From contig OY101125.1 of assembly GCA_956465555.1 (NCBI GenBank), positions 188,501 to 252,500 on the forward strand: a DNA stretch of 64,000 bases, read 5' to 3'. The notes under the pieces are model-generated. The model worked only from the letters and a program-made list of their open reading frames with translations. It did no database searches and was not told where the DNA came from. This DNA comes from Nitzschia sp. pyKryTriq1 (lineage: Eukaryota > Bacillariophyta > Bacillariophyceae > Bacillariales > Bacillariaceae). Both the position numbers and the translations under genes were made by a program. Of this stretch, positions 6,293-29,900 are shown in pieces. The number at the start of each line of letters is the position of its first letter. Positions within the stretch are counted from its first letter, which is position 1.

Positions 6293-8409
6293 ATGGTGTT
6301 GCTGAAAACCCGCGTTTCGGCTTCGTACTTGGTGGTGCTTCTTCTGATTCTCGGATGCGGTTCGGCGGTCGGAAGTGGTCCGAAAAATGCCGCAGTACGC
6401 AACGACGAAAAGAGTAAAGAACAGCGTTTCTTGGACGAGTTGGACAAATTTGACAGTTTCTTTGACGTGGATACTGCAGCTGGCGGCGAACGAAACCATC
6501 CCGGTGGCGGCTATCCTGCTCCATCAAATCCTCCCTACGGAGCGTACTTTCCAGGAGACTATGGCGATGGAATGATGAGTATGCCAACGCACAAACCATC
6601 GCCAACCCAGACACCACCACCGGTAATGACGCCCACACCACTACCAACTCTTCCTCCACCACCAACCTCTCCTCCGACGTTGCCAACAACACCGCGCCCA
6701 ACTTCGGGCCCAGTAGCCCGTCCAACGGTTCCCCCATATCCGGCTCCTACTTTGAAACCGACCAGGGCGCCCACTCCACCCACCATCGCTCCAACCGCAT
6801 ATCCTACACGGGCTCCTGTCACTTATCCGCCTACACCGGCTCCTTTCACGTACGCACCTACACCGGCTCCTATTGCAACAGCAGCCCCTGTAACGCCAAA
6901 GCCAACAATGCCGCCGTATGGTCCTCCAGTAAGTTTTTTAAATGCATATTGTCGCTGGCCATTCATTTTATTTATTTCAAGCTAACGTTCCCAACAATAC
7001 TCCTGATGCAGCCCACTCCTCCACCTTATCCACTGCCGACAACTCCATATCCAACTCCATATCCGACTCCATATCCGACTCCATATCCGACCAGTTCCCC
7101 TACTGCAAATCCTACGGTTTCGCCCTCAGCAAGTCCCTCGGCGAGACCTTCTGCAAGCCCATCGACAGAAGTACCTTCGGCTAAACCGAGTGCATCACCT
7201 AGTGCGGCTCCTTCTGCTTCTCCATCGTCTTCTCCCACTCGCTCGCCTACAATCTCCCCGTCGCGTGCTCCATCTGTAAGCCCAACCATTAGTCCGTTCC
7301 CGAGTGCAAGCCCATCCGAAAGTGATGCGCCAAGCTTGGAGCCGTCGTCGAGCCAGGCCCCAAGTGACGAGCCCTCATCCTCGTTCAGTCCATCCGAAGA
7401 GCCTTCACTATCAGCAGAACCATCTGTGGGACCCACTTTTACTAATGCACCCAGTGAACAACCCAGCTCGTCGGCGGAACCCTCGACTTCGGTTGAGCCC
7501 TCAGAAATGCCAACCAAGGAAGAAACCGAAGACATCGTGGAGTTCACCGTTCGCTACAGCGACCTCAGCCTCACCCTTTTTGGTATTAAGGACCTAAAAA
7601 AAGGCGACGAGGGTGATTGGGAGGACATTACTGCCGAGTGCATCGAGGATTTCTTCGCAAGGGAACGTCGTATTGATATCGCTGTTACTTTGGAGATCTC
7701 GAAGGTCAATGGCCGCATGATCAATCGCACGGATACGCGAGCACTCGAAGAGGAAGTCCTCCTGCGAAAATCTTCTAAAAAAGATTATGAAGCCGAGATC
7801 GAATATGACATGGAGGTGCGTATGTCGTTCGATGCCCGTGAGATTGAAATTGGTGACCTAGCTACTCAGTGGCTTGATCTTGAAGTCGACCGAGATGCTT
7901 ATGTGGAAAAGCTTAATGGCAACAAGGAGTTTGAGGACGTTATCCGCGTGAGTGAGGTCACTGGGACGGGTCTTCCACCGAGTTCGATCAACGAACTCGT
8001 TCCTCTTGTTGTCAATGTGGACCCAATTGAGATGACGTTGTTTGGAATTGACACCTTTCAGGGCGCTACTCGAGGAAGATGGAAGGTTGCCACTAGAAGC
8101 TTCGTGGAAGACTTCGTCTCCAGAAACGGAGGCCAGTTTGATGTTGAGCGTTTCACAACGAATTTCCCTGCCAACCCAGTGGGTGCGCGGCGACAAAACT
8201 CGGTCATCCTTACCTACGACCAAAGGTTTACCTTTAGTACCAGTCGTGAGTCCTCGATACCCGAATTGGTGCAGAAGCTAACAGCTTTGCCCTTCTGTGC
8301 CGGGGCCGCAAGAGAAAGATATGTCAACCGCTTTTTGAACCCTCAAGAGGGGTTGGAAGATGTTACCGGGAGCAGCCGAGTCCGGGGCACCGATTTCAAT
8401 TGCCCTTAG
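6293..8409 (+). CDS. Secreted mucin-like protein 1 (Pro-Thr/Pro-Ser rich with duplicated C-terminal domain)
   Basis: Exon 1 6293-6928, intron 6929-7011 (83 bp, GTAAGT...GCAG, phase 0), exon 2 7012-8409; 677 aa. Start chosen at MVLLKT because it begins a clean signal peptide (to about residue 27). A short acidic propeptide-like stretch, then a PT-rich region (about 95-215), PTPYPTPY repeats and a long PS-rich region (about 230-385). The rest holds two related modules starting near residue 386 (VEFTVRYSDLSLTLFGIKDL) and 548 (VDPIEMTLFGIDTF), each continuing with W...T...(C/F)(I/V)EDF. The same module pair is in the three downstream paralogues. Likely O-glycosylated and hydroxylated cell-surface or matrix protein; exact function unknown. 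It is the most divergent of the four and has a different N-terminus, so it is not part of the recent duplication. Confidence 0.85.
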
Positions 8410-9778
8410 TAAAATTGCCATATTTTATGTAGCCATATTCCTGATTTGCCCGTCAATTGGCATTGCTGGATGTTTCTCCATTGTTCCACAACACTGCTGC
8501 CACCGTGTACCATTAGTTAGTATACCTCAATCACGATTCTTACTCTACACCAGACGATCTGTAACTTTATTGAAAATGCAGAATAGGACAGAAATATGCT
8601 ACACACGTGCAGTTCTTTTCTTGTTTTGCGCACTTGTTCCGCTGCGTTACGATGTACGAATATTCGTACCGGTAGTCTACAAATAGCAGCATAACTTTCT
8701 ACTTGTATGATGCCTCGTGTTTTCTCAAAACAGTATTCGAAGCCCGGGGGGCTACCGGTTAAGTACCAGTACAGGTACCAGTACCTGGTACGACTGTACA
8801 GTACCAGAATTATAGGTACTGTATTGAGTACAGTACCAGGTACTGGTACCATTGTCTAAAAGTAGTCAAACTCAATATCGTCTGCCATAGAGGCAGAAAT
8901 CCCAGCGATAAAATGTTACGAAATCCGAACAATGAGATTTTCAACCAAAACTATCGCGTGCTACACATGAATACTGGTACCGTTACGCACGGATAGATAG
9001 CTACTCTAGTAGAGTACGCCTCCTGCGATTTTGTCTTTTTAAAGAACGTGTCGTACGTAGAAGCCGCCCAGCATGCAATTTTGAACTTAATAAGCACGAT
9101 TGGCGGTAAACGCCACCTGTTGATGGGAGCGCCACCTGGGAAGGGGCACATATCCAATGGACGGCGGGGGCGGCGGCGGCGGCGGCGCCAATTAATTGTT
9201 TGAGACCGGCAGGCTAGAGCATGCTGGGAAATAGAGCAGGGGGGAAGAATCACGAGAGCAACCCCAACGGTAATGTACGTACGGTACGTACAAGTCTACT
9301 AGATAAAAAATAGCCCCTCTGTCTAATAGTCTCTACCGTACTACTGTAGGATCCTGTGTGTGTGTGTGTGGGGGGGGGGGGGGGGCAGACAGACTTACTG
9401 TAGCACGCGCACTCCCCTCCAGAAAACCCGTCAACGGATCCTTGGGCGATGCAAGCGATCTAAGTACCATATTTGATTACAAGAAAGGATGTCACAACTA
9501 TATCCTGAACTTTTAAATAACCATCGTTCAGACGATAGAGCGTCGCTAATGAGAAATATTTAGCTATGCTATCGTTCCAACGGAAATCTTGCATAGGTCA
9601 GCGCCGGCAGAGCTTCTCTAATTACACAAACTCAGTCAATATCGCTTTGTTCCTATCATTCCTAAATCCTCCTTTTCGTTTGGAATTTTGCATCTCGCAG
9701 AAATATTCATAATCTTTCTCGTCCCCCACAACTTCCTATCCCTCTCGATTATCAAATACCACAACATAGGAGTGTAGA
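8410..9778. other. Intergenic with GTAC-rich palindromes and a poly-G tract
   Basis: No gene seen. Near 8750-8850 the sequence is a thicket of GGTACC, AGTACT and GTACCAGTAC words on both strands that can fold into hairpins. At 9356-9386 there is a (GT)n run followed by a G tract of about 17. The last 240 bp before 9779 are the conserved upstream flank shared with mucin-like genes 3 and 4 and probably hold the promoter. Confidence 0.5.
9538..9778 (+). promoter_or_regulatory. Conserved upstream flank of mucin-like gene 2
   Basis: Begins with GAGCGTCGCTAATGAGAAAT and runs to the start codon. The same flank lies upstream of gene 3 (from 13501) and gene 4 (from 16323). It includes GCCAGCGCCGGCAGAG-like words, an AATTACACAAACTC box, a CGTTTGGAATTTTGC box and the ACAACATAGGAGTGTAGA leader just before the ATG. 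Part of the conservation reflects recent duplication, but copy 1 differs by several indels, so the preserved blocks are reasonable promoter candidates. Confidence 0.5.
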
Positions 9779-11569
9779 ATGAAGATGAAAATCGTCTTCC
9801 AAGCGTCCTTTCTCCTGTTTTTTAGTATTGGATGTGTTCAGGGAAAATCCTCTAACAATGATGTGGTGGTTGACGAGAGCGAAGACCGAGAAAGGCGGTT
9901 GCAATATGGACAGTACGCACCGGCGCCGGTTCCACCACCTCCAACGATGCCACCATATGGCCCGTAAGTGTTGAGAAAACATATGTGCTTTGCTGTTTTG
10001 GTGAAAGCTCAACACCGCAAGAATTCTCTGCTCTCCACAGCCCTCCAACGATTCCACCCTATGGCCCGTAAGTTTTGAGAAAACATATGTGTTTTGCTGT
10101 TTTGGTGAAAGCTCAACACCGCAAGAATTCTCTGCTCTCCACAGCCCTCCAACACCCCCGCCAGCGCAGTATTCACCACCGTAAGTTTGAAGAATGAGTA
10201 AATGGCGAAATGCTTTGTTTTTTGATCCGCAAAAATCTCATGACAGTTTTCCTTTTTTCATAGTCTGATGACACCTATACCGACTCAACAGCCGACAAAT
10301 GCGCCGACAACAAAGCCCACCGTTTCACCATCCGCGAGCCCGTCTAGTGCTCCCTCTGCCAAGCCGAGTGCATCGCCTAGTGCGTCACCTAGTGCATCAC
10401 CTAGTGCATCACCTAGTGCATCACCTAGTGCATCGCCTAGTGCTGCTCCCTCTGCTTCTCCATCTTCTTCCCCCAGCCGATCGCCTACGAACTTCCCGTC
10501 GCGTGCTCCATCTGTAAGCCCGAGCCAGTCCCCAAGTAACGAGCCTTCACTATCGATTGAGCCATCCCAAGCTCCTTCAGGGTCAGACGCTCCCAGCGAG
10601 GAACCAAGCTTCTCGGAGGACATTGTGGAGTTCACCGTTCGCTACAACGACCTCTGCGTCACTCTTTTCAATATCAAGGACTTACGAAAAGGCGACGAGG
10701 GTGATTGGGAGGACATTACTGCCGAGTGCATCGAGGATTTCTTCGATAGGAAACGTGGTATTGATATCGATGTTACGTTGGAGATCTCGAAGGTCAACGG
10801 CCGCATGATCAATCGTACAGATATCCTTATCAATAGCACAAATACTGGAACGCGAGGCCTCCAGTATGGACGACTCCAGAACATTATCCTGCGAGCTAAA
10901 GGAGACTCAGCAAAAGAAACAAAAGGTTCTATAAAGGAAGATGACGTCAAGATCTGTTATGACATGGAAGTGCGTATGTCATTCGATGAGGATGAGATTG
11001 AAATTGGAGACCTAGCTACTCAGTGGCTTGATCTTGAAGTCGACCGAGATGCTTATGTGGATAAGCTTCAAGGTTCCAACAACGATCGGTTGCAAGATGT
11101 TGACGATGTCAGCGAGGTGACCGGAAGGGGTCTTCCACCGTCAACAAACGAACTCGTTCCTCTTGTTGTCAATGTGGACCCAATCGAGATGACATTATTT
11201 GGAATCGACACGTTTCAGGGCGCTACTCGAGGAAGATGGAAGGTTGCCACTAGAAGCTTCGTGGAAGACTTCGTCTCCAGAAACGGAGGCCAGTTTGAAG
11301 TTGCACTTTTCGAAACGAACTTCCCCGCTGAACCTGCGGGCGACTCTCGACAAAATTCGGTCATCGTTACTTACGACCAAAGGTTTACGTTTCGTACGAG
11401 TCATGAATCCTCGATACCCTCATTGGTGCAGAAGCTAACAGCCTTGCCCTTCTGTACCGAGTCCGCTAGAGAAAGATACGTCGAGGACTATTTGAACGAT
11501 AATCGAGAGGGCTTGGAAGACGTCACTGGGAGCAGCCGAGTCCGGGGCACCGATTACGACTGCCCTTAA
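9779..11569 (+). CDS. Secreted mucin-like protein 2 (four exons, with duplicated micro-exon)
   Basis: Exons 9779-9963, 10041-10067 (27 nt), 10145-10180 (36 nt) and 10264-11569, all joined in phase 2; 517 aa. Introns are GTAAGT...AG of 77, 77 and 83 bp; the first two are almost the same sequence. Residues 1-22 are a signal peptide, followed by an acidic stretch and DRERRLQYG, where RRL matches the R-x-L processing site described for diatom silaffins and cingulins (inference). Then PP-rich micro-exons, PTQQPTNAPT, a run of PSAS repeats (five near-identical SPSA units), and the two-module C-terminal domain from about residue 201. Compared with gene 3 it lacks much of the SDEPS repeat region and has one extra micro-exon. 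Extracellular structural or adhesive role is likely; not proven. Confidence 0.85.
10041..10144 (+). repeat. 104-bp exon-intron unit duplicated inside mucin-like gene 2
   Basis: The last 27 nt of exon 1 plus the 77-bp intron 1 recur next door as exon 2 plus intron 2. The introns differ at about two positions; the exon pieces both encode PPTMPPYGP/PPTIPPYGP. Genes 3 and 4 have only one such intron, so the copy arose in this gene or was lost in the others. Confidence 0.85.
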
Positions 11570-11819
11570 AAAATATCTTGTACACCTTCTTTACTTGTTG
11601 CTTGTAATGACATGATGGATTCATGCTTCATACCTCTACTTCCACATGGCAACCGTCTAAATGAATGAGCCGTGTGACCCCAATAATCGCCATAATGCTT
11701 TGTGTCCCACTTAATAATAGTATTTTTCATTGATTCTATACCAAGAGTAATTGACGTAACTTTTCAGAAAAGAGAATATAGGACCTTATTGACTGTAGGT
11801 CAGCATCCTCCCCGATCTC
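11570..11819. other. Spacer between convergent genes
   Basis: 3' regions of mucin-like gene 2 and the methyltransferase gene. The same 250 bp, including the ACACCTTCTTTACTTGTTGC and CCGTGTG...CCCAATAATCG words, follows genes 3 and 4, which shows that the duplicated block extends through it. Confidence 0.6.
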
Positions 11820-12383
11820 TCAATCGAAACCCCCAAGCGCTTGCCGCCAGTCATATGCAATCAGTTGTACAGCAGAGGCAAGATTGAGAGAACCAAAAGA
11901 TGGATTGGTTGGAATCCCCAGCACAACATGGCATAGACTGAAATCTTCACTTCTAATGCCAAACCGTTCATTCCCAAAGACAAACGCAATGGAAGAAAAG
12001 CCGTTCTTTTCCTGGTCCGTATCATTCATCAACTTCCGAAAATAAGGCCTGGGCTCGATGTATATCTGCTGTCTCCTTTCCAGCGACATGTCCATCGGCA
12101 TACCGGTGGCACATTTGATATCCGATCCCTCCAAGGCTTCAGCTAGTGTATCCACCACTCGAGCGGCGTTCAAAACATCCACAGCGCCACTGGCCCCTTC
12201 TTTGGTTCGTTTTCGATTCAAAACCTTTGGATCGTGAGGCGACACGAGTACCAGCTCTCCAAACCCCATGGTTTTGATGGCTCGGGCGGCGGCACCGACA
12301 TTTCCGGGATGTGACGTTTGTGTCAAAATGAAACGGGTGCGAACGGAAGCAGCGAGCAGCATTGCGAAGACAATCCCGAGCAT
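11820..12383 (-). CDS. SPOUT (TrmH/TrmJ-like) RNA 2'-O-methyltransferase
   Basis: A 187-aa single-exon protein. It carries the three classic SPOUT motifs: NVGAAARAIKTMGF (motif 1, about residues 28-41), FVFGNERFGIRSEDF (motif 2, about 133-147) and IPTNPSFGSLNLASAVQLIAY (motif 3, near the end). The SLNLASAV core and the preceding CHVVLGIPTN are diagnostic of the TrmJ-type tRNA/rRNA (cytidine/uridine-2'-O-)-methyltransferase group, where these residues form the trefoil knot that binds S-adenosylmethionine. The length covers the catalytic domain only. The N-terminus MLGIVFAMLLAASVR is hydrophobic and might be a targeting sequence. Two partial copies of its 3' end lie at 15.8 and 18.8 kb, so this is the parent gene. 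Confidence 0.85.
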   Translation of the reverse strand: MLGIVFAMLLAASVRTRFILTQTSHPGNVGAAARAIKTMGFGELVLVSPHDPKVLNRKRTKEGASGAVDVLNAARVVDTLAEALEGSDIKCATGMPMDMSLERRQQIYIEPRPYFRKLMNDTDQEKNGFSSIAFVFGNERFGIRSEDFSLCHVVLGIPTNPSFGSLNLASAVQLIAYDWRQALGGFD

Positions 12384-13320
12384 GCTCAGCAGCTCAGCTC
12401 CTCCGATACTGCCAACTTGTGCTCTTCGTGAACCGTAAATATGCTGCTAGCTGGTGGTGGCGATTTTCATTGTAGTATCAGCAGAGGATATCGCTCAGTC
12501 TGTGGTGGGCCTGGTCTCTGGGAGTATGAGTATGTCACTTGTACGGTTACTGCAACTATGAACCCTGACGACTATTCATACATAGCACGCATCACAGGTG
12601 TCGTGATCGGTGTCGGGAGATGTATGACTGTGTTAAATTGTGGGATCCTTCGCGTAGACGCGCGTGGCCTATGGTACAAAACTCATCGCAGAACTCGGTA
12701 CAAAATGAAGCAGCGGCCAGACCGCGTAATAATTCTTCGTGATAATCGAGTTTTGAAAAAATGAGTTCCAGCCGTGGTAAATTGTGCAGTGCGATAGCGC
12801 GAAATACGCCGATCAACGCTGTAGTAATTACCACGGCTGTCTCGCCTTAATTTGTTTGTTAACGAATAAAACAAATTAACACGGGATTTTGACGCCCTTC
12901 TTTGCGCAGAATTTCGGTGGTAGGACAGACTCCTACCAGGTTCTACACACGCTACTACGCGTTTCCGCTTTTTTGGTACAGCCATAAAGAGTGAGTCTAT
13001 CATTCTACTCTACTGATCCTCCAGGAGGGCCCAAGCTACCGGTAGAGGCGATGAGGTTTGTGGTGATCCGGACTCTCACGGTCTGTCCGTCGCCCGTGTC
13101 CAGTTGAGCCAGTCGAGCCTGACAATCGGGTTCATGGTTCATCCGTTTCATCGCGTGTCGCGTGTCCACCGCTCTCTTCTACCTGTAGCTTGATATCGGT
13201 CCGTGCGCTTCCGCGAGAAAGACCCCCAGCTAGGTAACACCTGGTACCGGTACAGTTCGTACCAGGTACTTGCACAGTACTTGTACAGTACGTACGTTAC
13301 CGGTACTACAGGCAGTGTGG
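12384..13320. other. Intergenic, no gene seen
   Basis: No reading frame with coding character. At 13235-13312 there is another dense group of GGTACC, GTACCGGTAC, AGTACTTGTACAGTAC words. The duplicated block carrying mucin-like gene 3 begins shortly after, at about 13320. Confidence 0.5.
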
Positions 13321-13730
13321 AAATGAAAAGGGCCTGTGTTAGTGCGACATGCATTAATGTCATAATATACAAGTCTGATGAAGGGGATTTAAATTGGTCC
13401 TAAGTAGTTAAGTGGATTTACTTAACTGGCGAGGACGTGATGGTCGATTTCCCCTGTCACATACGTGAAGTCCATAATAGTGACAATCGATCAGACGACA
13501 GAGCGTCGCTAATGAGAAATATTTAGCTATGTGAATACGATAATATTAATAGGCCAGCGCCGGCAGAGCGTCTCGAATTACACAAACTCCCTCCTTCGTC
13601 GAAATCGCTTATCCCATCATTCCTCCTTCGTTTGGAATTTTGCCTCTCGCAGAAATATTCATAATTTTAATCTTCCTCCACAAATTCCGATACCTCTCGA
13701 TTATCAGATTCCACAACATAGGAGTGTAGA

Positions 13731-15531
13731 ATGAAGATGAAAATCGTCTTCCAAGCGTCGTTTCTCCTGTTTTTTAGTATTGGATGTGTTCAGGGAAAAT
13801 CCTCTAACAATGATGTGGTGGTTGACGAGAGCGAAGACCGAGAAAGGCGGTTGCAATATGGACAGTACGCACCAGCGCCGGTTCCCCCACCTCCAACGAT
13901 GCCACCATATGGCCCGTAAGTGTTGAGAAAACATATGTGCTTTGCTGTTTTGGTGAAAGCTCAACACCGCAAGAATTCTCTGCTCTCCACAGCCCTCCAA
14001 CGCCCCCGCCGGCGCAGTATTCACCACCGTAAGTTTGAAGAATGAGTAAAGAATGGCGAAATGCTTTGTTTTTTGATCCGCAAAAATGTCATAACAATTT
14101 TCCTTTTTTCATAGTCTGATGACACCTATGCCGACTCAACAGCCGACAAATGCGCCGACAGCAAAGCCCACCGTTTCACCTTCCGCGAGCCCGTCCAGTG
14201 CTCCCTCTGCCAAGCCTAGTGCATCGCCTAGTGCATTGCCTAGTGCATCGCCTAGTGCATCGCCTAGTGCGGCTCCCTCTGCTTCTCCATCTTCTTCCCC
14301 CAGCCGATCGCCTACGAACTTCCCGTCGCGTGCTCCATCTGTAAGCCCGAGCCAGTCCCCAAGTAACGAGCCTTCACTATCGATTGAGCCATCCCAAGCA
14401 CCTTCAGGGTCAGACGAACCCAGTTTCAGCCCAAGTGACGAGCCCTCATTATCGCTTGAGCCATCCCAAGCACCTTCAGGGTCAGACGAACCAAGTTTTA
14501 TTAAGTCGCGAGCTCCATCAGATGCTCCAAGCGAGGAACCAAGTGAGGAACCCACCATGGAAGAAAAGGAAGACATTGTGGAGTTCACGGTTCGCTACGA
14601 CGACCTCTGCGTCACTCTTTTCGGTATCAAGGACTTACGAACAGGCGACGAGGATGAATGGGAGGACATTACGGCCGAGTGCATCGAGGACTTCTTCGCT
14701 AGGAAACGTGGTATTGATATCGATGTTACGCTGGAGATCTCGAAGGTCAACGGCCGCATGATCAATCGCACAGATATCCTTATCAATAGCACAAATACTG
14801 GAACGCGAGGCCTCCAGTATGGACGACTCCAGAACATTATCCTGCGAGCAAAAGGAGACTCAGCAAAAGGAGCAAAAGGAACAAAAGGTTCTATAAAGGA
14901 AGATGACGTCAAGATCTGTTATGACATGGAAGTGCGTATGTCATTCGATGAAGATGAGATTGAAATTGGAGACCTAGCTACTCAGTGGCTTGATCTTGAA
15001 GTCGACCGAGATGCTTATGTGGACAAGCTTCAAGGTTCCAACAACGATCGGTTGCAAGAAGTTGACGACGTCAGCGAGGTGACCGGAAGGGGTCTTCCAC
15101 CGTCAACAAACGAACTCGTTCCTCTTGTTGTCAATGTGGACCCAATCGAGATGACATTATTTGGAATCGACACGTTTCAGGGCGCTACTCGAGGAAGATG
15201 GAAGGTTGCCACTAGAAGCTTCGTGGAAGACTTCGTCTCCAGAAACGGCGGCCAGTTTGAAGTTGCACTTTTCGAAACGAACTTCCCCGCTGAACCTGCG
15301 GGCGACTCTCGACAAAATTCTGTCATCGTTACTTACGACCAAAGGTTTACGTTTCGCACGAGTCATGAATCCTCGATACCCTCATTGGTGCAGAAGCTAA
15401 CAGCCTTGCCCTTCTGTACCGAGTCCGCTAGAGAAAGATACGTCGAGGACTATTTGAACGATGATCGAGAGGGGTTGGAAGATGTTACCAGGAGCAGCCG
15501 AGTCCGGGGTACCGATTACGTCTGTCCTTAA
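13731..15531 (+). CDS. Secreted mucin-like protein 3
   Basis: Exons 13731-13915, 13993-14028 (36 nt) and 14115-15531, phase 2 throughout; 545 aa. Exon 1 encodes the same 62 residues as genes 2 and 4: signal peptide, acidic stretch and DRERRLQYG. The linker holds four SPSA units (one as LPSA), then repeats of EPSLS-EPSQAPSGSDEPS. The two-module domain starts near residue 226 (VEFTVRYDDLCVTLFGIKDL) with the second module at VDPIEMTLFGIDTF. Between module 1 strands sits a short Lys-rich insert (RAKGDSAKGAKGTKGSIKEDD). An INSTNTGTR segment holds an N-glycosylation site. Nearly the same as gene 2 over the C-terminal half. Extracellular matrix or adhesive function is inferred only from architecture. 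Confidence 0.85.
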
Positions 15532-15781
15532 AAAATATCTTGTACACCTTCTTTACTTGTTGCTTGTAATGACATGATGGAATCATGTTTCATACCTCTA
15601 CTTCCACATGGCAACCGTCTAAATGAATGAGCCGTGTGGTCCCAATAATCGCCATAATGCTTTGTGTCCCACTTAATAATAGTATTTTTCATTGATTCTA
15701 TACCAAGAGTAATTGACGTAACTTTTCAGAAAAGAGAATATAAGACCTTATTGATTGCAGGTCAGAATCCTCCCCGATCTC

Positions 15782-15980
15782 TCAATCGAAACCCCCAAGC
15801 GCTTGCCGCCAGTCATATGCGATCAGTTGTACAGCAGAGGCAAGATTGAGAGAACCAAAAGATGGATTGGTTGGAATCCCCAGCACAACATGGCATAGGC
15901 TGAAATCTTCACTTCTAATGCCAAACCGTTCATTCCCAAAGTCAAACGCCCTGGAAGAAAAGTCGTTCTTTTCCTGGTCA
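15782..15980 (-). pseudogene. Truncated copy of the SPOUT methyltransferase 3' end
   Basis: Encodes about 66 residues matching the C-terminus of the gene at 11820-12383 (motifs 2 and 3, FGNERFGIRSEDF...SLNLASAVQLIAYDW, and the same stop). The reading frame is still open, but similarity ends upstream of residue about 121 and motif 1 is absent, so no SAM-binding knot could form. It has changes at conserved sites (for example AFVFGNERF is AFDFGNERF). A passenger of the segmental duplication. Confidence 0.8.
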
Positions 15981-16552
15981 ATGATTTGTGTGTCGAAGTT
16001 CCCCTTCCTTATGTCCGAGTTCGTGGTGCTGCATTCGGACAAATTCGCTTGGAATTCGACTTTATTCAATGGTTTCGATGAGATTCCCTGATGCCCGACT
16101 CTTCTACGGGTACCTTTACAGTACCGGTACATCAGAAGGATATGGGAAATGAAAAGGGTTTGTGTGAGATGTGAATCAATATCATATTATACAAATCTTG
16201 TGACGGGGATATATATTTGTCGTACGTAGTTAACAGTGTTTACTTAACTGGCGAGGACGTGATGGTCGATTTCCCCTGTCACATACGTGAAGTCCATAAT
16301 AGTGACAATCGATCATACGACAGAGCGTCGCTAATGAGAAATATTTAGCTATGTGAATACGATAATATTAATAGGCCAGCGCCGGCAGAGCGTCTCGAAT
16401 TACACAAACTCCCCCCTTCGTCGAAATCGCTTATCCCATCATTCCTCCTTCGTTTGGAATTTTGCCTCTCGCAGAAATATTCATAATTTTAATCTTCCTC
16501 CACAACTTCCGATACCTCTCGATTATCAGATTCCACAACATAGGAGTGTAGA

Positions 16553-18527
16553 ATGAAGATGAAAATCGTCTTCCAAGCGTCGTTTCTCCTGTTTTTTAGT
16601 ATTGGATGTGTTCAGGGAAAATCCTCTAACAATGATGTGGTGGTTGACGAGAGCGAAGACCGAGAAAGGCGGTTGCAATATGGACAGTATGCACCGGCAC
16701 CGGTTCCACCACCTCCAACGATGCCACCATATGGCCCGTAAGTGTTGAGAAAACATATGTGCTTTGCTGTTTTGGTGAAAGCTCAACACCGCAAGAATTC
16801 TCTGCTCTCCACAGCCCTCCAACGCCCCCGCCGGCGCAGTATTATCCACCACCGTAAGTTTGAAGAATGAGTAAAGAATGGCGAAATGCTTTGTTTTTTG
16901 ATCCGCAAAAATGTCATAACAATTTTCCTTTTTTCATAGTCTGATGACACCTATGCCGACTCAACAGCCGACAAATGCGCCGACAACAAAGCCCACCGTT
17001 TCACCTTCCGCGAGCCCGTCCAGTGCTCCCTCTGCCAAGCCTAGTGCATCGCCTAGTGCATTGCCTAGTGCATCGCCTAGTGCATCGCCTAGTGCGGCTC
17101 CCTCTGCTTCTCCATCTTCTTCCCCCAGCCGATCGCCTACGAACTTCCCGTCGCGTGCTCCATCTGTAAGCCCGAGCCAGTCCCCAAGTAACGAGCCTTC
17201 ACTATCGATTGAGCCATCCCAAGCTCCTTCAGGGTCAGACGAACCAAGTGTCAGCCCAAGTGACGAGCCCTCATTGTCGCTTGAGCCATCCCAAGCACCT
17301 TCAGGGTCAGACGAACCAAGTTTTATTAAGTCGCGTGCTCCATCTGTGATCCCGAGCCAGGCCCCAAGTAACGAGCCCTCATTATCGCTTGAGCCATCCC
17401 AAGCACCTTCAGGGTCAGACGAACCAAGTTTTATTAAGTCGCGTGCTCCATCAGATGCTCCAAGCGAGGAGCCAAGCGAGGAACCAAGCTCGTCTGAGGA
17501 ACCCACCATGGAAGAAAAGGAAGACATTGTGGAGTTCACCGTTCGCTACAACGACCTCTGCGTCACTCTTTTCGGTATCAAGGGCCTCCGAAAAGTAGAC
17601 GAGCGTGATTGGGAGGACATTACTGCCGAGTGCATCGAGGATTTCTTCGCAACGGAACGTGATATTAATATCGATGTTACCTTGGAGATCTCGAAGGTCA
17701 ATGGTCGTAAGATCAATCGCGCAAATACGTTGACCAATAGTACGGATACTGGAACCCGAACACTCCAGTATGGACGACTTCAGAACATCGTCCTGCGAGG
17801 AAAAGGCGAAGGAGGGAAAGGAGAAGGCGGAAAAGGAGCAGAGGGGAAAGGAGGAAAAGGAGAGGGAGGAAAAGGAGGGAAAGGTTCCATAAAGGACGAC
17901 GAAGTCAAGGTCTGTTATGACATGGAGGTGCGTATGTCATTCGATGAAGATGAAATTCAAATTGGTGACCTAGCTACTCAGTGGCTTGAAAGTGAAAACG
18001 ACCGAACGGCATATGTGGAAAAGCTTCAAGGTTCCAACAACGATCGGTTGCAAAATGTTGACGACGTCAGCATTGTCACCGGAAAGGGTCTCCCGCCAAG
18101 TTCGATAAACGAACTCGTTCCTCTTGTTGTCAATGTGGACCCAATTGAGATGACGTTGTTTGGCATTGACACCTTTCAGGGCGCTACTCAAGGAAGATGG
18201 AAGGTTGCCACTAGAAGCTTCGTGGAAGACTTCGTCTCCAGAAACGACGGCCTATTCGACGTTGAGCGTTTCACGACGAATTTCCCGGCTGACCCTAAGG
18301 GCGAGCCTCGACAAAATTCTGTCATCGTTACTTACGACCAAAGGTTTACCTTTAGTACCAGTCGCGACAAGACAATACCCCCATTGGTGCAGAAGCTAAC
18401 AGCCTTGCCCTTCTGTACCGGGGACGCCAGACAACGATATGTCAACCGCTTTTTGATACCACAAAGGGGGTTGGAAGACGTCACTGGGAGCAGCCGAGTC
18501 CGGGGCACCGATTACGACTGTCCTTAA
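16553..18527 (+). CDS. Secreted mucin-like protein 4, with Lys-Gly expansion
   Basis: Exons 16553-16737, 16815-16853 (39 nt, one codon longer than in gene 3) and 16940-18527; 603 aa. Exon 1 and the PSAS region match genes 2 and 3. The Pro-Ser linker is the longest of the three, with an extra SDEPSFIKSRAPSVIPSQAP-type repeat. The two-module domain begins near residue 269. Inside module 1 (about residues 361-390) is a run of KGEGGKG-like units, where genes 2 and 3 have only a short AKG segment. The second half is closer to gene 1 than to genes 2 and 3 (shared SSINELV, DVERFTTNFP, FSTSR and RYVNRFL), which suggests gene conversion. Role as for its paralogues; the basic insert could bind acidic polymers or silica (speculative). 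Confidence 0.85.
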
Positions 18528-18754
18528 ATATCTTGTACTAGTACTACACCTTCTTTGCTTGTTGCTTGTAATGACATGATGGATTCATGCTTCATACCTC
18601 TTCTTCCACATGGCAACCGTCTAAATGAATGAGCCGTGTGGTCCCATTAATCGTCATAAATGCTTTGTGCCCCACTTAATAATCTTAATAATATTATTTT
18701 TCATTGATTCTATACCAAGAGTAATTGACGTAATTCTTTGTCAGAACAAATCCT

Positions 18755-18990
18755 CCCCGGCGATCTCTCAATCGAAACCCGCCCCAGCAAGCGCTTGCCG
18801 CCAATCATATGCCGGCGATCAGTTGTACAGCAGAGGCACGATTGAGAGAACCAAAAGATGGATTGGTTGGAATTCCCAGCACAACATGGCATACTGTAGA
18901 CTGAAATCTTCACTTCTAATGCCGCAAAACCGCGTTCATCCCCCCCCCCCCCCAAAGACAAACGCAATGGAAGAAGAAAAGCCGTTCTTT
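18755..18990 (-). pseudogene. Decayed copy of the SPOUT methyltransferase 3' end
   Basis: Third copy of the methyltransferase C-terminal region. The DNA words GAAACCC, AGCGCTTGCCGCCA, ATCAGTTGTACAGCAGAGGCA, GAGAGAACCAAAAGATGGATTGGTTGG and CAGCACAACATGGCATA are all kept in order. Several small insertions break the frame, and a C14 run replaces part of the conserved region. It cannot encode a working enzyme. Confidence 0.75.
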
Positions 18991-19973
18991 GCTTCCTGCG
19001 GTCAGGATGCCTAGACAAAGTAGTCGAATGAATCATCCATTTTTAGAGCCCGCGAGCTCTCTTTCGGCTTTATCGACGCCGCAGTAATTGGTAACATGTG
19101 TTCGAATAACTACATCGAACGTCCACGGAACGACGGACGGACGCGACCAGCGTTCACAATTACGCACGATCACGCACGACGCACGTCTCGATCACGACCC
19201 AGAGATTCTTTCTAAGACTATCGGAGACAGTCTATGATCCCCCAAGAAACTATAAGAAGCCCACAGACTTCTATCGAAATACATGTCAACGATTCAAGAA
19301 AATAGAAATGAACCAAAGTTCATTTCATCAGTTAGAGCAAGAGCTCATTAATTTATGTTAGCGCACTTCGTTAACCCACAGTCAAATTAGTCCTTTAGCC
19401 CGAATCCCACAATTACGCACGATCACGCACGACGCACGTCTCGATCACGACCCAGAGATTCTTTCTAAGACTATCGGAGACAGTCTATGATCCCCCAAGA
19501 AACTATAAGAAGCCCACAGACTTCTATCGAAATACATGTCAACGATTCAAGAAAATAGAAATGAACCAAAGTTCATTTCATCAGTTAGAGCAAGAGCTCA
19601 TTAATTTATGTTAGCGCACTTCGTTAACCCACAGTCAAATTAGTCCTTTAGCCCGAATCCCTGAGCCGCTAGCCACTGCCTAGAACTCACGGATTTTAAC
19701 AAACATGTACTGCACTGGAACGTACGAGTACCGTATTGTGCTTTCCCGCAATTGCGAGGTCTCAGAAGTGTCCTCGTACTGTACATACCTGTACTGAACT
19801 GCGTAGAAAGGAACCAAAAATAAAATCCGGCGACCGACCATGGCGCTGAGAGGCGACGGGAGTCGTCATCAGTCATCATTCACTGTGTTCATATATCATA
19901 TACCGCGGTATATTCAATGTAACAATAGCAATACAATAGGCTGCTGCTATACTACTAGAGCGTTGTTAGCATA
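18991..19973. other. Intergenic around the 253-bp repeats
   Basis: Apart from the direct repeat, the region holds a GTACGAGTACCGTA-type cluster at 19720-19800 and an ATACCGCGGTAT palindrome near 19903, identical to the one near 2619. The 3' part should contain the promoter of the MORN gene. No other gene seen. Confidence 0.45.
19155..19660. repeat. Two 253-bp direct repeats, head to tail
   Basis: The unit beginning CACAATTACGCACGATCACG at 19155 recurs at 19408 and ends with TTTAGCCCGAATCC at about 19660. I found no difference between the copies by eye over 253 bp. No reading frame, no obvious terminal inverted repeats and no poly-A. Inside are an inverted pair (AGACTATCGGAGACAGTCT), GAACCAAAGTTC and a CACGACGCACGTCTCGATCACGA stretch. 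It could be a recent unequal-crossing-over duplication or the remnant of a repetitive element. Confidence 0.85.
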
Positions 19974-22903: not shown

Positions 22904-23276
22904 CGGCTACTATAGTCTTGGTTTCACACACATTTTGGATCCAATAGCAGCGGTGGGCCTCAACATTGTCCATTGGCCAGTGAACAATGGCCAACATATT
23001 TCATTGCAGGGCGACCACTCTACTACTACTAGTAGAGCGACGAAATAGAAGATGAAAACAACGGCAGGGTAGCCTTGGAACAACACTGGCCGGAAAGCAA
23101 GTGCTAGAATCGATCGAATATGCTATCCACTGAATATTTGTTTCTAACTTATATCGGCGGTGTCTATTGGGACTGACTTGCAGCCAAAACTTGAAGACTC
23201 CTCCCCTTCCCATCCCTCGCCAAAGTCTTAACTTCCAACCCAAACATCTTTCAAGCAAAAGGCGGCTGTACACTGC
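22904..23276. other. Spacer between convergent genes
   Basis: 3' regions of the MORN gene and of the first small secreted gene. It contains a short inverted repeat (GTCCATTGGCC...GGCC) near 22968-22995. The words GTTTCTAACTTA and GACTGACTTGCAG near 23140-23185 recur at 24143-24190 downstream of the second small gene, so the duplication includes the 3' region. Confidence 0.5.
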
Positions 23277-23576
23277 TTAACAGTAGTAATCATCGTTGCA
23301 GCAGAGTCCGCAAGACTGGCCGGAGGTCTCCTTCATCTTGCGGCCTCCCTCCTTGTCCTCGGTAGTGGCGTCGGGGGTCCCATGGTCCTCGACGTTCGAC
23401 CCACGAAGCTCGCGCTTCTTCTCATCGCCAGTATCGACGGCGGCTTCGGGAGCGGGAACATCGGCGGCGGCAGCAAGAGTGTTATCCCCGCCGGGGCTGG
23501 CAGCTTCGGGAGCTGTAGCAGCATGGCCCGAAACAAGGAGGGCGGCAAAGAGAGTGGCGAGAGCAGTGAACTTCAT
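23277..23576 (-). CDS. Small secreted protein with Cys-rich C-terminus, copy 1
   Basis: A 99-aa protein. Residues 1-19 (MKFTALATLFAALLVSGHA) are a clear signal peptide. The middle is Ala/Pro/Glu rich, then GDEKKRELRGSNVED, which holds a dibasic KKR site and an R-x-L motif (REL). The C-terminus ends SGQSCGLCCNDDYYC, with four Cys in the last eleven residues. The overall plan, signal peptide, acidic pro-region, basic cleavage site and short Cys tail, fits a processed secreted peptide. No family recognised. Its sister lies 1.08 kb away on the same strand and the last 20 residues are the same in both. Confidence 0.8.
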   Translation of the reverse strand: MKFTALATLFAALLVSGHAATAPEAASPGGDNTLAAAADVPAPEAAVDTGDEKKRELRGSNVEDHGTPDATTEDKEGGRKMKETSGQSCGLCCNDDYYC

Positions 23577-23765
23577 TTTGAAATCTTGTTGGCTTGATTG
23601 CGGGAGGGTTTACAAAAACTGGTCTGATGAAATTGTGAGCTTTCGAGTTGCTTGGCAAATGATTTTTTGGAAGAGACCCGACAACCACGAAATGCTGGAA
23701 TCCTGGTACTGGTTGAACAGAGACGTCGTAGGATCTTTCTTTGGAGCACCGATTCCTTCCCTTTT

Positions 23766-23945: not shown

Positions 23946-24335
23946 TCCACCACCCTCCTTCTTTTGCGTCGTATCAACGCTCTCTCGACGTTTGGAATGA
24001 GGAATGCGAATGAAATGGAATTGCCGCGGGCGAAAGGAGAATAGCTTTACGAATGGCAACGAAATCTTCACCTTCCGAGAATTGAATGTCGATGAGATCA
24101 TCTGCTACTACTCCAGGATAATCAAAGTTGACTGAAACTTCTGTTTCTAACTTAATTGTGGAAGCTACATGCACTCCGACTGACTTGCAGTCGCCTTGTT
24201 TGAGATACCACTGTCCGCCCCACGCTCGAACTCAAATCTTTGCTTCTTTCCCAAACCAAGAATCTCCCTTCCAAGATTCCAAAGCAGCAGTGCAACAAGC
24301 TGCCATGATGATGATGATGCGCGTATACATACTGT

Positions 24336-24656
24336 TTAACAGTAGTAATCATCGTTGCAGCAGAGTCCGCAAGACTGGCCGGAGGTCTCCTTCATCTTGC
24401 GGCCTGCCTCCTTGTCCTCCGTGGTGGCTTTGTCCTCGGTGGTGGCTTCGGGGGTCCCATTGTCCTCGACGTTCGACCCACGAAGCTCGCGCTTCTTCTC
24501 ATCGTCGCCAGTATCGACGGCGGCTTCGGGAGCGGGAACATTGGCGGCGGCGGCAGGAGTGTTACCCTCGCCGGCGCTGGTAGCTTCGGGAGCTGTAGCA
24601 GCATGACCCGAAACAAGGAGGGCGGCAAAGAGAGTGGCGAGAGCAGTGAACTTCAT
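24336..24656 (-). CDS. Small secreted protein with Cys-rich C-terminus, copy 2
   Basis: A 106-aa paralogue of the gene at 23277. The start at 24656 is preferred over an upstream in-frame ATG because it begins the same signal peptide as the sister. It differs by an extra ATTEDK repeat in the acidic region and a few substitutions. The KKRELRGSNVED segment and the CGLCCNDDYYC tail are unchanged, which points to selection on those two parts. The upstream 45 bp including CAAAAACTGGTCTGATGAAATTGTGAGC are also shared, so the promoter-proximal region was copied too. Confidence 0.8.
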   Translation of the reverse strand: MKFTALATLFAALLVSGHAATAPEATSAGEGNTPAAAANVPAPEAAVDTGDDEKKRELRGSNVEDNGTPEATTEDKATTEDKEAGRKMKETSGQSCGLCCNDDYYC

Positions 24657-25616
24657 TTTGAATGTTGGCTTTGCAAAAACTGGTCTGATGAAATTGTGAG
24701 CTCTTTTCAAGTTGCTTGGGAAATGAAGTGGAGGACGAGAAGATATCGTCTAGAGTAGTAGTATCGAAAAATACCGACTTTCTTGTACTACTAGTAGACT
24801 AGAGTATCGGAACGGCAACACCTGGTACTAGAGTACGCTATCTTATAAAAGCTTCTCATCAGACAAGTCTTTTTTCGATATTCTGTTTTTGCGAAGCTTT
24901 TCGTTACCTGCTCTAGTTACCTGCTCTAGTGTTTGTACTTTGAGAAGCTTTTATTGCTCTCGTAGTAGCTATTAGCTACTCTGGTAAAAAATGATGTCGG
25001 CCAATGCTTGTTCTCTCGTATAGGAAGTATGAAATTCTTGTTGAGAAGCTTTTGGCAGCACCTTGCTTCTCGAGGGAGCTGAAAAAAGCTACCAATAGAA
25101 AGCTAGTACAAGTCTGGTAGAGGTAGAGAGAGAGAGAGTTCTACGGCGTCAACTGATTTCTACTTCTTCTCTTCTCGGAGTTACGACTACCACTCTAGAG
25201 TAGCTACTAGCTAGTAGTAGTAGTAGTAGCAGTAGCAGCAGGGTGAATATCGTTGTCTACAGTAGTAGTACTACTACATACTGTAGACTACCGTTATTCC
25301 GTACGAATGCAGTCCTCGAGCTAGAGTCGTGCTAGCTAGGCGGACAAATTTTATAAAGAACACAATAATGTTCTAGAATGTCCGAACTCTTGCTGTCATC
25401 AATCTCGCTGTTCTTCGTTCGCCGTTTTCTTACGGCCTTTTCGACGCTCTTAGTGTACCGCGGTGGTATACCTGGTACCTTGCTCCTACCGTACTACAGT
25501 ACGACCACTTTCATGCACGTGTACGAGTAAAATACTGATACCGCAGTATGGTTTGATGCGAGAGCCCGATACACAATACACGATAAACGATACCGTCATT
25601 ATTACTATCATCATCA
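24657..25616. other. Intergenic, upstream of small secreted gene copy 2
   Basis: Besides the GAGAAGCTTTT boxes, it is filled with CTACTAGTAG, CTCTAGAGTA and AGTAGTAGTAG words and, near 25455-25500, GTACCGCGGTGGTATACC-type palindromes. No gene seen. Confidence 0.45.
24847..25053. promoter_or_regulatory. GAGAAGCTTTT box cluster upstream of copy 2
   Basis: Copies at 24847-24857 (reverse), 24891-24901 (GCGAAGCTTTT, one change), 24942-24952 and 25043-25053, i.e. 190-400 bp upstream of the small gene starting at 24656. The same box and distance range are found upstream of its sister at 23576. Confidence 0.6.
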
Positions 25617-26982: not shown

Positions 26983-29900
26983 CTAAGTGCAGCAGCGCGT
27001 TACCAGACACGCGGAATCGCAATCGGTGGTGGGAAGATTTTGGCAATCCGAACCTTGGAAATTGTCAATCCCAATATAGTTCCCATTCCCAACGCAACAT
27101 CCGCAATACAATCCACTATTGCCTATTGCGCCTTGTTTAATTTGCTGTGCACCTCCATTGCAAACTAGACTGCCTTCGTTGGGACTCTTTTTACTGGTTA
27201 AGACATCTGTGCCACCACCGGCCAGCTGAGGACACCGGTCATTGGCATTCGCACCAGTCGTGGGAGCGGGTGTCGGAGCGAGTGTCGGAGCGAGTGTCGG
27301 AGCAGGTGTGGGGCCGGGTGTCGGAGCAGGTGTCGGGCCGGGTGTCGGAGCAGGTATCGGAGCAGGTGTCGGAGCAGGTGTTGGAGCAGGTGTCGGAGCG
27401 AGTGTCGGAGCAGGTGTCGGAGCGAGTGTCGGAGCAGGTGTGGGGCCGGGTGTCGGAGCAGGTGTCGAGCCGGGTGTCGGAGCAAGTGTCAAACCGGCTG
27501 TGGGATCGGGTGTCGGACCTGGTGTCGGGGCGGGTGTCGGAACGGGTGTCGGAGCAGGTATCGGAGCAGGTGTCGGAACGGGTGTCGGACCCGTTGTCGG
27601 AGCAAGTGTGGGACCTGGTGTCGGAGCGGGTGTCAAACCGGCTGTGGGAACCAATGTCGGACCTGGAGTCGGGCCGGGTGTTGTTGGAAAAAGTGTTGGA
27701 CCGGGTGTTGGCTGCTTGGTACTCGGAGAGCCGGAAGGGGCACTGCTAGGTTGGCTTGTGGAAGGCGAATCACTAGGAATACTGCTTGGTGCAGCTGTTT
27801 TGGGGCTTGGCGCGCCACTTGGCGCCGCACTTGGCGATGGCGACGGTCCAGCCGATGGCGCGCTGGATGGACTACTCGTGGGATCTGCAGAAGGAGCGCT
27901 GGATGGCATAACAGTCGGTTTACCGCTTGGAGAACCTGACGGATCGTTTGATGGAGCTGGCGATTTCGATGGTGCGGACGAACCTTCCATCGTAGGCCTA
28001 TGGCTGGGCGAGGAGCTCGGCGCGGGAGATTCAGTGGGCACCTTGGAGGGACTCGCTGATGGCGCCCCGCTCGGGTCGACTGAGGGTAAACTCGTGGGAC
28101 CAGCAGAAGGTGACTGCGAGGGACCTGGGCTCGGGCCGGTACTTGGAGCCGGAGATTCGGTCGGGGCCAACGAGGGACTCGAAGATGGCACAGCGGTCGG
28201 GAATGCTGATGGCGCGATCGAAGGACCAGGTGACGGCGCGTCCGAGGGTGCGGTGAAGGGAATCGATGAAGGACTGCTGCTTGGAGCCCCGGTCGGACTT
28301 GTCGACGGAGCTGGTGAAGCCGTGGGCGACTCCGATGGACCTGCCGAGGGCGCGCTAGATGGCGTACTCGTGGGATCTACAGAAGGAGCGCTGGATGGCA
28401 TAACAGTCGGTTTACCGCTTGGCGAACCTGACGGATCATTCGATGGAGCAGCAGATTTCGACGGTGCGGCGGAACCTTCCATCGTGGGCCTATGGCTGGG
28501 CGAGGAGCTCGGAGCGGGAGATTCAGTGGGCACCTCGGAGGGACTCGGTGATGGCGCCCCGCTCGGGTCGACTGAGGGTACACTCGTTGGACCAGCAGAA
28601 GGTGACTGCGAGGGTCCTGGGCTCGGGCCGGTACTTGGAGCCGGAGATTCGGTCGGGGCCAACGAGGGACTCGAAGATGGCACAGCGGTCGGGACTGCTG
28701 ATGGCGCGATCGAAGGACCAGGTGACGGCGCGTCCGAAGGTGCGGTGGAGGGAACCGAGGTAGGACTGTCGCTTGGAGACGCCGTCGGACTTGTCGACGG
28801 AGCTGGTGAAGCCGTGGGCGACTCCGACGGACCAGCCGAGGGCGCGCTGGATGGACTACTCGTGGGATCTGCAGAAGGAGCGCTGGATGGCACAACAGTC
28901 GGTTTACCGCTTGGCGAACCTGACGGATCATTCGATGGAGCAGCAGATTTCGTCGGTGCATAGGTACCATCTATCGTAGGCCTATGGCTGGGCGAGGAGC
29001 TCGGAGCGGGAGATTCAGTGGGCACCTCGGAGGGACTCGGTGTTGGCGCCCCGCTCGGGTCGACTGAGGGTACACTCGTTGGACCAGCAGAGGGTGACTG
29101 CGACGGAACTGGGCTCGGGCCGGTACTTGGAGCCGGTGATTCAGTCGGGACCAACGAGGGACTCGACGATGGTACAGCGGTCGGGACTTCTGACGGCGTC
29201 TTTGAAGGAACAGGTGACGGCGCGTCCGAGGGTGCGGTGGAGGGAACCGAGGTAGGACTGTCGCTTGGACTCACAGTCGGGACAGTTGACGGAGCCGGAC
29301 TAGCGGAAGGTTGAGCACTGGGTGCCGGTGACGGTCCACCAGTAGGACTTGCCGACGGTCTGTTGGTTGGAACGTCGGTAGGGGAATCGGTGGGGTTGTC
29401 AGTGGGCACTGTCGTTGGTGCATCTGTCGGTACATCGGTGGGTGCCACAGTGGCGCCAAGTAGTGTGGGAAACTGAGTAACTGGTGCAACCGTTGTTGCA
29501 ATGGTTGTTGGTGCAATCGTGGTCGGTGCAATGGTTACTGGTGCAATCGTGGTCGGTGCAATGGTTGCTGGTGCAATCGTCGTCGGTGCTATCGTTGCTG
29601 GTGCAATCGTCGTTGGTGCATTGGTAAGAACCGCGGCGGCTCCAAGCGGTGTAGGAGACCCCGAAACTGGTGCGATGCTAGTAGGCGGCGACGAAGTAAT
29701 GGGCGGACCACTTTGCAGTACGGGTAGGATGGGAGCAGCAGTTGGTGCAATGACGGGCGCCATCGTGGATGGCCGAGTCGTCGTCGTACTCGCTGCGATA
29801 CTACTACTACCCGTAGTAGGCGCAGCAGTCGGGGGAAATACGGGCATTACTGTTGGAGGCCGTGTGGTTGGATCCTGTGGTATTGGATCCGGCAGTCCAT

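Follow-up and report, generated by a model that had tools for sequence, protein, structure and literature searches.

Among the closest described counterparts of the genes presented here is the family of polymorphic mucins of Schistosoma mansoni (SmPoMuc), which the relevant passages of its description present as a small, clustered multigene family whose members are mosaics produced by recombination between one another, and in which gene conversion keeps the repeats alike while other exons remain different (PMC2576457). Here we describe four mucin-like genes, D, A, B and C, that stand side by side on the plus strand within 12.3 kb of a 64,000-nucleotide (nt) stretch of DNA from Nitzschia sp. 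pyKryTriq1 (the window, 188501-252500 of contig C11; the assembly totals 40.65 Mb in 20 contigs, designated by C numbers). The proteins of A, B and C carry an N-terminal hydrophobic stretch, an RxL motif at residue 39, a stalk rich in proline, serine and threonine (P/S/T) and a C-terminal head. Genes A, B and C lie in segmental copies whose mutual divergence changes abruptly along their length, and the array is probably an old local one in which non-allelic gene conversion later replaced parts of the units, first between A and B and then from B into C. The host is a diatom, as read from a search for the silicon transporter family PF03842, which gave eight genome matches above the cut-off, most with an expectation value (E) below 1e-260, and in which one of 14 control genomes responded, below the cut-off.

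The kind of system, tandem mucin-like genes under patchy gene conversion, is a known one; here the exchanged pieces tend to correspond to protein parts. The diatom array and SmPoMuc are alike in that clustered mucin-like genes have mosaic members with similar repeats and different other parts (in the portions of PMC2576457 that deal with these features). According to the same portions, however, SmPoMuc breakpoints are evenly spread in the 3' constant region and the system is tied to host compatibility (PMC2576457), whereas in the diatom family two tracts end at the stalk/head junction, and the sequences are unrelated as far as compared. The spiggin genes of stickleback, as outlined in part of PMC4989455, are likewise tandem and mucin-derived and encode a secreted adhesive, but they originate from animal MUC19, and the likeness is drawn from their description. 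Within diatoms, sections of PMC6114903 report neighbouring silicon transporter (SIT) paralogues whose identity was attributed to gene conversion; the evidence there is the identity of two whole genes, whereas in the present array the tract ends are visible inside the units. In the same sections, from 2018, the authors state that they knew of no case of non-crossover gene conversion in a diatom genome (PMC6114903). Diatom adhesive proteins with vWD and GDPH domains resemble the present family in being secreted and in belonging to tandem-expanded families, and diatoms such as Seminavis commonly contain tandem duplicates (both in the parts of PMC7335047 consulted). The string GDPH is absent from all eight proteins of our family in a string search (GDPH domain models were not run). 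No description of this array was recognised among the best-ranked papers in the open-licence literature of PubMed Central, which is weak evidence of absence.

Three segmental units with abrupt steps in divergence

An earlier note on this DNA had proposed that a segment, rather than a gene alone, was copied twice in direct orientation, and self-comparison of the window bears this out. Segments 9520-12017 and 13483-15979 match at 83.4% (A/B), 13293-15971 and 16117-18990 at 83.7% (B/C), and 10498-12009 and 17330-18990 at 77.5% (A/C), with E = 0 in each case. Similarity confined to the coding parts would have refuted the note, and this is not what the alignments show: alongside the exons, the introns, the 5' flank, the 3' spacer and the tail of a methyltransferase gene are common to all three units. 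Unit A spans 9520-12017 on the plus strand, as delimited by self-comparison and alignment, and comprises the 5' flank, gene A, the 3' spacer and the 3' part of the methyltransferase gene. Unit B spans 13293-15979 and unit C 16117-18990, the latter extended by pairwise alignment to a GGTC at 19000-19003. The gene models, in which all splicing was inferred from the sequence, have open spliced frames in the three units. Gene A (9779-11569, plus strand) has four exons (9779-9963, 10041-10067, 10145-10180 and 10264-11569) and encodes 517 amino acids (aa). Gene B (13731-15531, plus strand) has three (13731-13915, 13993-14028 and 14115-15531) and encodes 545 aa with a C-like stalk and an A-like head, and gene C (16553-18527, plus strand) also has three (16553-16737, 16815-16853 and 16940-18527) and encodes 603 aa with a diverged head and the longest stalk among A-C.

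On the right, similarity ends at GGTC in A (12014-12017), B (15976-15979) and C (19000-19003), and the 40 nt beyond it show no similarity among the three units (1487, 863 and 1785 of 2,000 shuffles score equally well). Because the match to A ceases at GGTC in both B and C with nothing alike beyond, the right break is common to B and C. It falls inside the methyltransferase gene, as the note had proposed for the right duplication boundary, and unit A alone holds that gene whole: a genome DNA search with it returned three matches, one full copy and two tails. The shared part is larger than the last codons spoken of in the note, amounting in A/B to 198 nt, the stop and 65 of 187 codons. On the left, B and C share an extension (13293-13482 in B, 16117-16304 in C, the latter from self-comparison and part-wise comparison) that has no match in the left flank of A, as had been noticed, although it starts slightly left of the 13320 and 16140 originally proposed. 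This common extension supports B and C as structural sisters; it may have been lost from A or gained in B and C. Part-wise figures that involve A for the left extension and the methyltransferase tail suffer from misaligned ends and were excluded. Besides, partly palindromic stretches rich in GGTACC lie close to unit borders (8774-8850, 13240-13310 and 16105-16130); the motif is also scattered elsewhere in the window, so that a tie to the breaks is not established.

Along the units, divergence does not change gradually. B and C differ at 24 of 96 sites (25%) in 13317-13416, at 13 of 1,172 (1.1%) in 13417-14588 and at 148 of 937 (15.8%) in the C-terminal head (14589-15528), and the left extension of B is accordingly composite, its outer part old relative to C and its sequence from 13417 near-identical. 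A and B differ at 37 of 223 sites (16.6%) in 13483-13712 and at 70 of 2,123 (3.3%) in 13713-15973. Fisher tests of these steps gave P values of 1e-19 and 4e-40 for B/C and 2e-13 for A/B, which are descriptive, as the windows were picked once the pattern was visible. A permutation test, which is independent of window choice, was run on 268 variable sites in 2,314 ungapped columns: the longest run shared by B and C covers 30 sites, a length that none of 10,000 shuffles attained, and the longest runs of A/B (24 sites) and A/C (6 sites) were attained in 4 and 1 of 10,000, respectively. Low-divergence tracts with sharp ends inside older divergence were thus observed in the array, as well as in a gene pair on contig C6 described below.

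Comparison part by part shows the same mosaic. Intron 1 has no difference in 77 positions in any of the three pairs, and intron 2 has 3 in 83 for A/B and A/C and 0 in 86 for B/C. The stalk repeats differ by 5.7% (A/B), 1.3% (B/C) and 5.4% (A/C), the head DNA by 3.2%, 15.5% and 14.9%, respectively, and the 3' spacer by 2.9% for A/B and 9.9% for B/C and A/C. Coding constraint is not the cause of the low divergence, given the identical intron 1 and only 3 differences in 477 non-coding positions of the B/C tract. Nor can selection on the head protein alone account for the high divergence, as the silent sites of the A, C and D heads have diverged too. The number of synonymous substitutions per synonymous site (dS, NG86) between heads is 0.09 for A-B, 0.325 for A-C, 0.341 for A-D, 0.339 for B-C, 0.359 for B-D and 0.370 for C-D, and the ratio of non-synonymous to synonymous rates (dN/dS) in the five pairs other than A-B is 0.37-0.40 by NG86 and 0.44-0.53 by YN00.

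These steps are at odds with the simple recent order of the earlier note, with C derived from B or B from C. The outer left extension, with its 24 of 96 differences, adjoins 1,172 bases at 1.1% (Fisher P about 1e-19), which means that the split of B and C is old and their near-identity the result of later copying. The proposed tree also did not foresee the 3' half of B, whose head is A-like (3.2%) and not C-like (15.5%). Finally, the count of three holds for A, B and C but overlooked a fourth, diverged copy, gene D (6293-8409, plus strand; exons 6293-6928 and 7012-8409; 677 aa), the 5' part and flanks of which are distinct. The head of D is 84-85% identical in DNA to those of A-C, and seven pairwise comparisons of flanks and spacers gave a best E of 0.17 (0.40 in the two that used the D flanks).

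A proposed conversion history and competing explanations

We infer the following history, which we hold to be probable. Unit A, together with the end of the adjoining methyltransferase gene, would have been copied rightwards with a break at GGTC, and an ancestor of B and C with its own left flank would have been copied again to give both units. This copying would be old, as unconstrained sequence has since diverged by about 15-25%. Much later, a conversion between A and B would have covered both units from the gene start to the broken end of the methyltransferase (candidate tract 13713-15979 in B coordinates, plus strand, with the 70 differences in 2,123 sites up to 15973), taking in stalk and head, and it is now about 3% different. 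Still later, B would have overwritten the inner left extension, exons 1 and 2, the introns and the stalk of C, leaving a putative tract (13417-14588, plus strand) that is now about 1% different. The tract from B into C stops at the stalk/head junction (14572-14588 in B coordinates, the head starting at 14572), so that the head of C would have stayed old. Such a stop may arise if pairing begins in the similar, repeat-rich stalk and breaks off on reaching the diverged heads, and it would keep stalks alike and heads diverse. The two overwriting events would make B C-like on its 5' side and A-like on its 3' side. An order with A/B before B/C is suggested by non-coding positions, of which 3 in 477 differ within the B/C tract and 14 in 445 in the 3' non-coding part of A/B (P 0.006). 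The direction from B to C is suggested by the stalk of C, which is A-like (0-4% in introns and exon 1, 5% in the repeats); the head and 5' flank of C differ from A by about 15%, and the stalk would be expected to do likewise if unconverted.

Several observations weigh against this history. The A/B tract passes through the head (heads 96.8% alike in DNA), so that heads are not exempt, and in gene D the pattern is reversed, its head being as close to A as that of C while its intron and its old 5' part align with those of A poorly at best; together with the A/B tract, gene D rules out a general sparing of heads. At only 9.9%, the 3' spacer of C is less distant from those of A and B than its head is. 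A short patch close to the gene end (15483-15588) pairs A with C at 8 of 10 sites and calls for a further event; at three sites there, B has bases in common with D. A mosaic made by the assembler would also count against it and is weighed below.

An import of the head of C, and perhaps of D, from a lost or unsampled paralogue or allele, with the remainder of the unit keeping its own age, is unlikely. It would suit a C head that lies between more similar flanks (stalk 1.3% from B, 3' spacer 9.9%) and the approximate equidistance of the A, C and D heads (NG86 dS 0.33-0.37). However, the genome-wide head search gives no donor, since only the four array genes share high identity and the others stand at about 30%, and both the old outer left extension and the old 5' flank of A would be left unexplained.

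That B is a recent one-step hybrid, formed by unequal crossing-over between A and C with its 5' part from C and its 3' part from A, is a rather improbable alternative. The order of the array, in which a unit with a C-like 5' and an A-like 3' side stands between A and C, is exactly what one exchange gives, and the stalk distance A-B (5.7%) about equals A-C (5.4%). But a single recent exchange sits badly with the 25% difference between B and C in the outer left extension and with the different ages of the two halves of B (3/477 versus 14/445, P 0.006). It also predicts a whole methyltransferase gene and spacer after B, whereas B breaks at the GGTC of C and is followed by a repeat fragment.

We regard it as very unlikely that collapsed repeats or joined haplotypes made the mosaic in assembly. 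The array is repeat-rich, has dispersed elements and a perfect 254-bp tandem repeat as neighbours, and unit C contains a C run of 14-15 bases as well as several small insertions, all of which could favour an artefact; yet a simple artificial duplication would not be expected to leave differences at many sites over most of the length of the copies, as seen here, and the second locus, on another contig, has the same type of tract. In unit C itself, 18524-19003 (the 3' spacer and methyltransferase tail) shows a C run and many insertions of 3-15 bases, and the sequence that separates these has few substitutions.

A plain recent triplication from A to B to C, with the C head evolving fast through selection or relaxed constraint, is the least credible of all, for although both outer boundaries are common to B and C and amino acids do change in the heads (the dN/dS values above), silent sites have diverged as far in the head of C as in that of D, so that fast protein change is not what distinguishes it, and the 25% of the outer left extension and the 16.6% of the A/B 5' flank are non-coding and old.

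Family proteins, the extra exon and surrounding sequences

The array proteins are predicted to be secreted and mucin-like and may act at the cell surface. RxL motifs are processing marks of diatom wall proteins. The P+S+T fraction of the stalk is 0.56-0.65 in A-D, and the PT repeat family PF04886 was matched in both of the array open reading frames (ORFs) that the scan covered, those of A and C (E 1.6e-10 in A, whose protein has all three parts). Two genome-wide head searches gave nine matches each, with two genes matched twice in one or the other, and define a family of eight genes: D, A, B and C, three on C6 and one on C4. All eight proteins have an N-terminal hydrophobic stretch by plain hydropathy. 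Two related segments, each about 125 aa long or longer, make up the head (nine invariant columns in an alignment of nine segments). No credible relative of it was found in Pfam (nine domain segments; four families reached an E of 1 or lower, none in more than one segment, with 0.04 as the best), in a profile search of PDB sequences (best E 0.049 over 26 residues) or in NCBIfam (0 families for one head-containing ORF). AlphaFold models of two window proteins with the head had mean predicted local distance difference test (pLDDT) scores of 29.3 and 41.8, too poor for a fold search. A SEA or other mucin-associated domain was considered for the head and matched neither domain models nor PDB sequences; a SEA-like beta-alpha-beta-beta-alpha order is only a guess. 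The relative on C4 (3103554-3106934) has a hydrophobic stretch near its C terminus, as a surface protein might; its N-terminal part is of another kind and perhaps reminiscent of a cupredoxin.

Units A, B and C align through exons and introns, as had been proposed for a shared layout, but A has one exon and one intron more. In A, two direct 104-bp copies (9938-10041 and 10042-10145, plus strand; 4 of 104 differences) each start in CCTCCAACG and create a predicted extra exon of 27 nt, in frame, and a second intron of 77 nt, whose splice sites are those of the first. Intron 1 of B and C has the 9-mer CCTCCAACG on either side, at a distance of 104 bp (13890/13994 and 16712/16816), so that slippage or unequal exchange between the two 9-mers would give exactly the form of A. 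The peptide motif has a single form in D; the duplicated state of A is, on that ground, probably derived. A comparable gain is described for Drosophila, where, in the part of PMC2891723 concerned, a short tandem duplication across an exon/intron border adds an intron. The case of unit A differs from the one set out there (PMC2891723) in that the duplicated piece includes an old intron in full, its two splice sites among it, and also creates the 27-nt in-frame exon, and no new splice site was needed.

The methyltransferase gene (11820-12383, minus strand; 187 aa) is convergent to gene A. Its product belongs to the SpoU/TrmH superfamily (PF00588, E 2.6e-24 over residues 17-177 of 187) and is TrmJ-like at most: the best NCBIfam family, TrmJ/YjtD TIGR00050 (E 5e-37), scores 128 bits, below the cut-off of 167.15. 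The tail in B (15782-15979, minus strand) lacks the 5' part and has 65 codons still open; that in C (18765-19003, minus strand), which ends at the GGTC, has its frame broken by small insertions. The spacer between A and B holds a dispersed repeat of about 365 bp (12623-12986), and its 98-99% identity to copies on C1, C6 and C13 points to recent activity; a second dispersed repeat follows at 12985-13125. A 121-bp fragment of a dispersed repeat (15979-16099), 80-81% identical to four other places, is joined to the broken end of B. Beyond C lies a high-copy dispersed repeat (19098-19661) with at least 48 genome matches (40 of 94 candidates scored), which contains the perfect 254-bp tandem duplication.

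Across the window (G+C 48%), a scan with Rfam and ARAGORN gave no match. Other repeats, outside the array, are an older duplicated gene pair on the minus strand (43621-45317 and 46279-47922, about 60-66% identity in pieces), strong internal repeats at 27249-29298 within a 1345-aa minus-strand ORF (26983-31020) in the most G+C-rich part of the window, and a direct repeat (23272-23676 and 24331-24740) about 85% identical.

The stalk/head border at a second locus

Two of the C6 genes, L012 (minus strand) and L013 (plus strand), form an inverted, head-to-head pair. Their stalks differ at 3 of 638 nt (coding positions 151-788 of L012), while most aligned blocks before and after this tract are at 60-75% identity and the heads differ at 104 of 405 positions (dS 0.57). 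The longest run that the two share against a third gene, L015, covers 238 variable sites and was reached in 0 of 10,000 shuffles. The identity stops about 20 codons ahead of the conserved head start. Judged from these alignments, the pair shows an independent stalk-only tract of the same type as that of B and C. Genome searches with stalk DNA found no copy beyond the cluster concerned (two matches for the C6 stalk; five, all on C11, for the array stalk).

Among the three long tracts recognised, the stalk/head border is where two of them stop; the third, that of A/B, crosses the head. Two loci suggest, and do not prove, a possible general rule of alike stalks and different heads. Tentatively, and with a probability that we put low, the family may diversify as two modules, with stalks renewed by conversion within each cluster and heads shielded by a barrier at the junction that would strengthen itself as the heads diverge.

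Altogether, a single gene of this array holds pieces of two or three ages, because of which whole-gene divergence counts would misdate the copies. With tract ends this sharp, a comparison of strains could test directly for conversion in a diatom. Unit A would be a young case in which a whole exon and intron were gained together via a short duplication between 9-bp repeats. If the two-module scheme is true, the family would use a single shared spacer to carry an expanding repertoire of surface binding heads, and would in principle resemble polymorphic-mucin systems.

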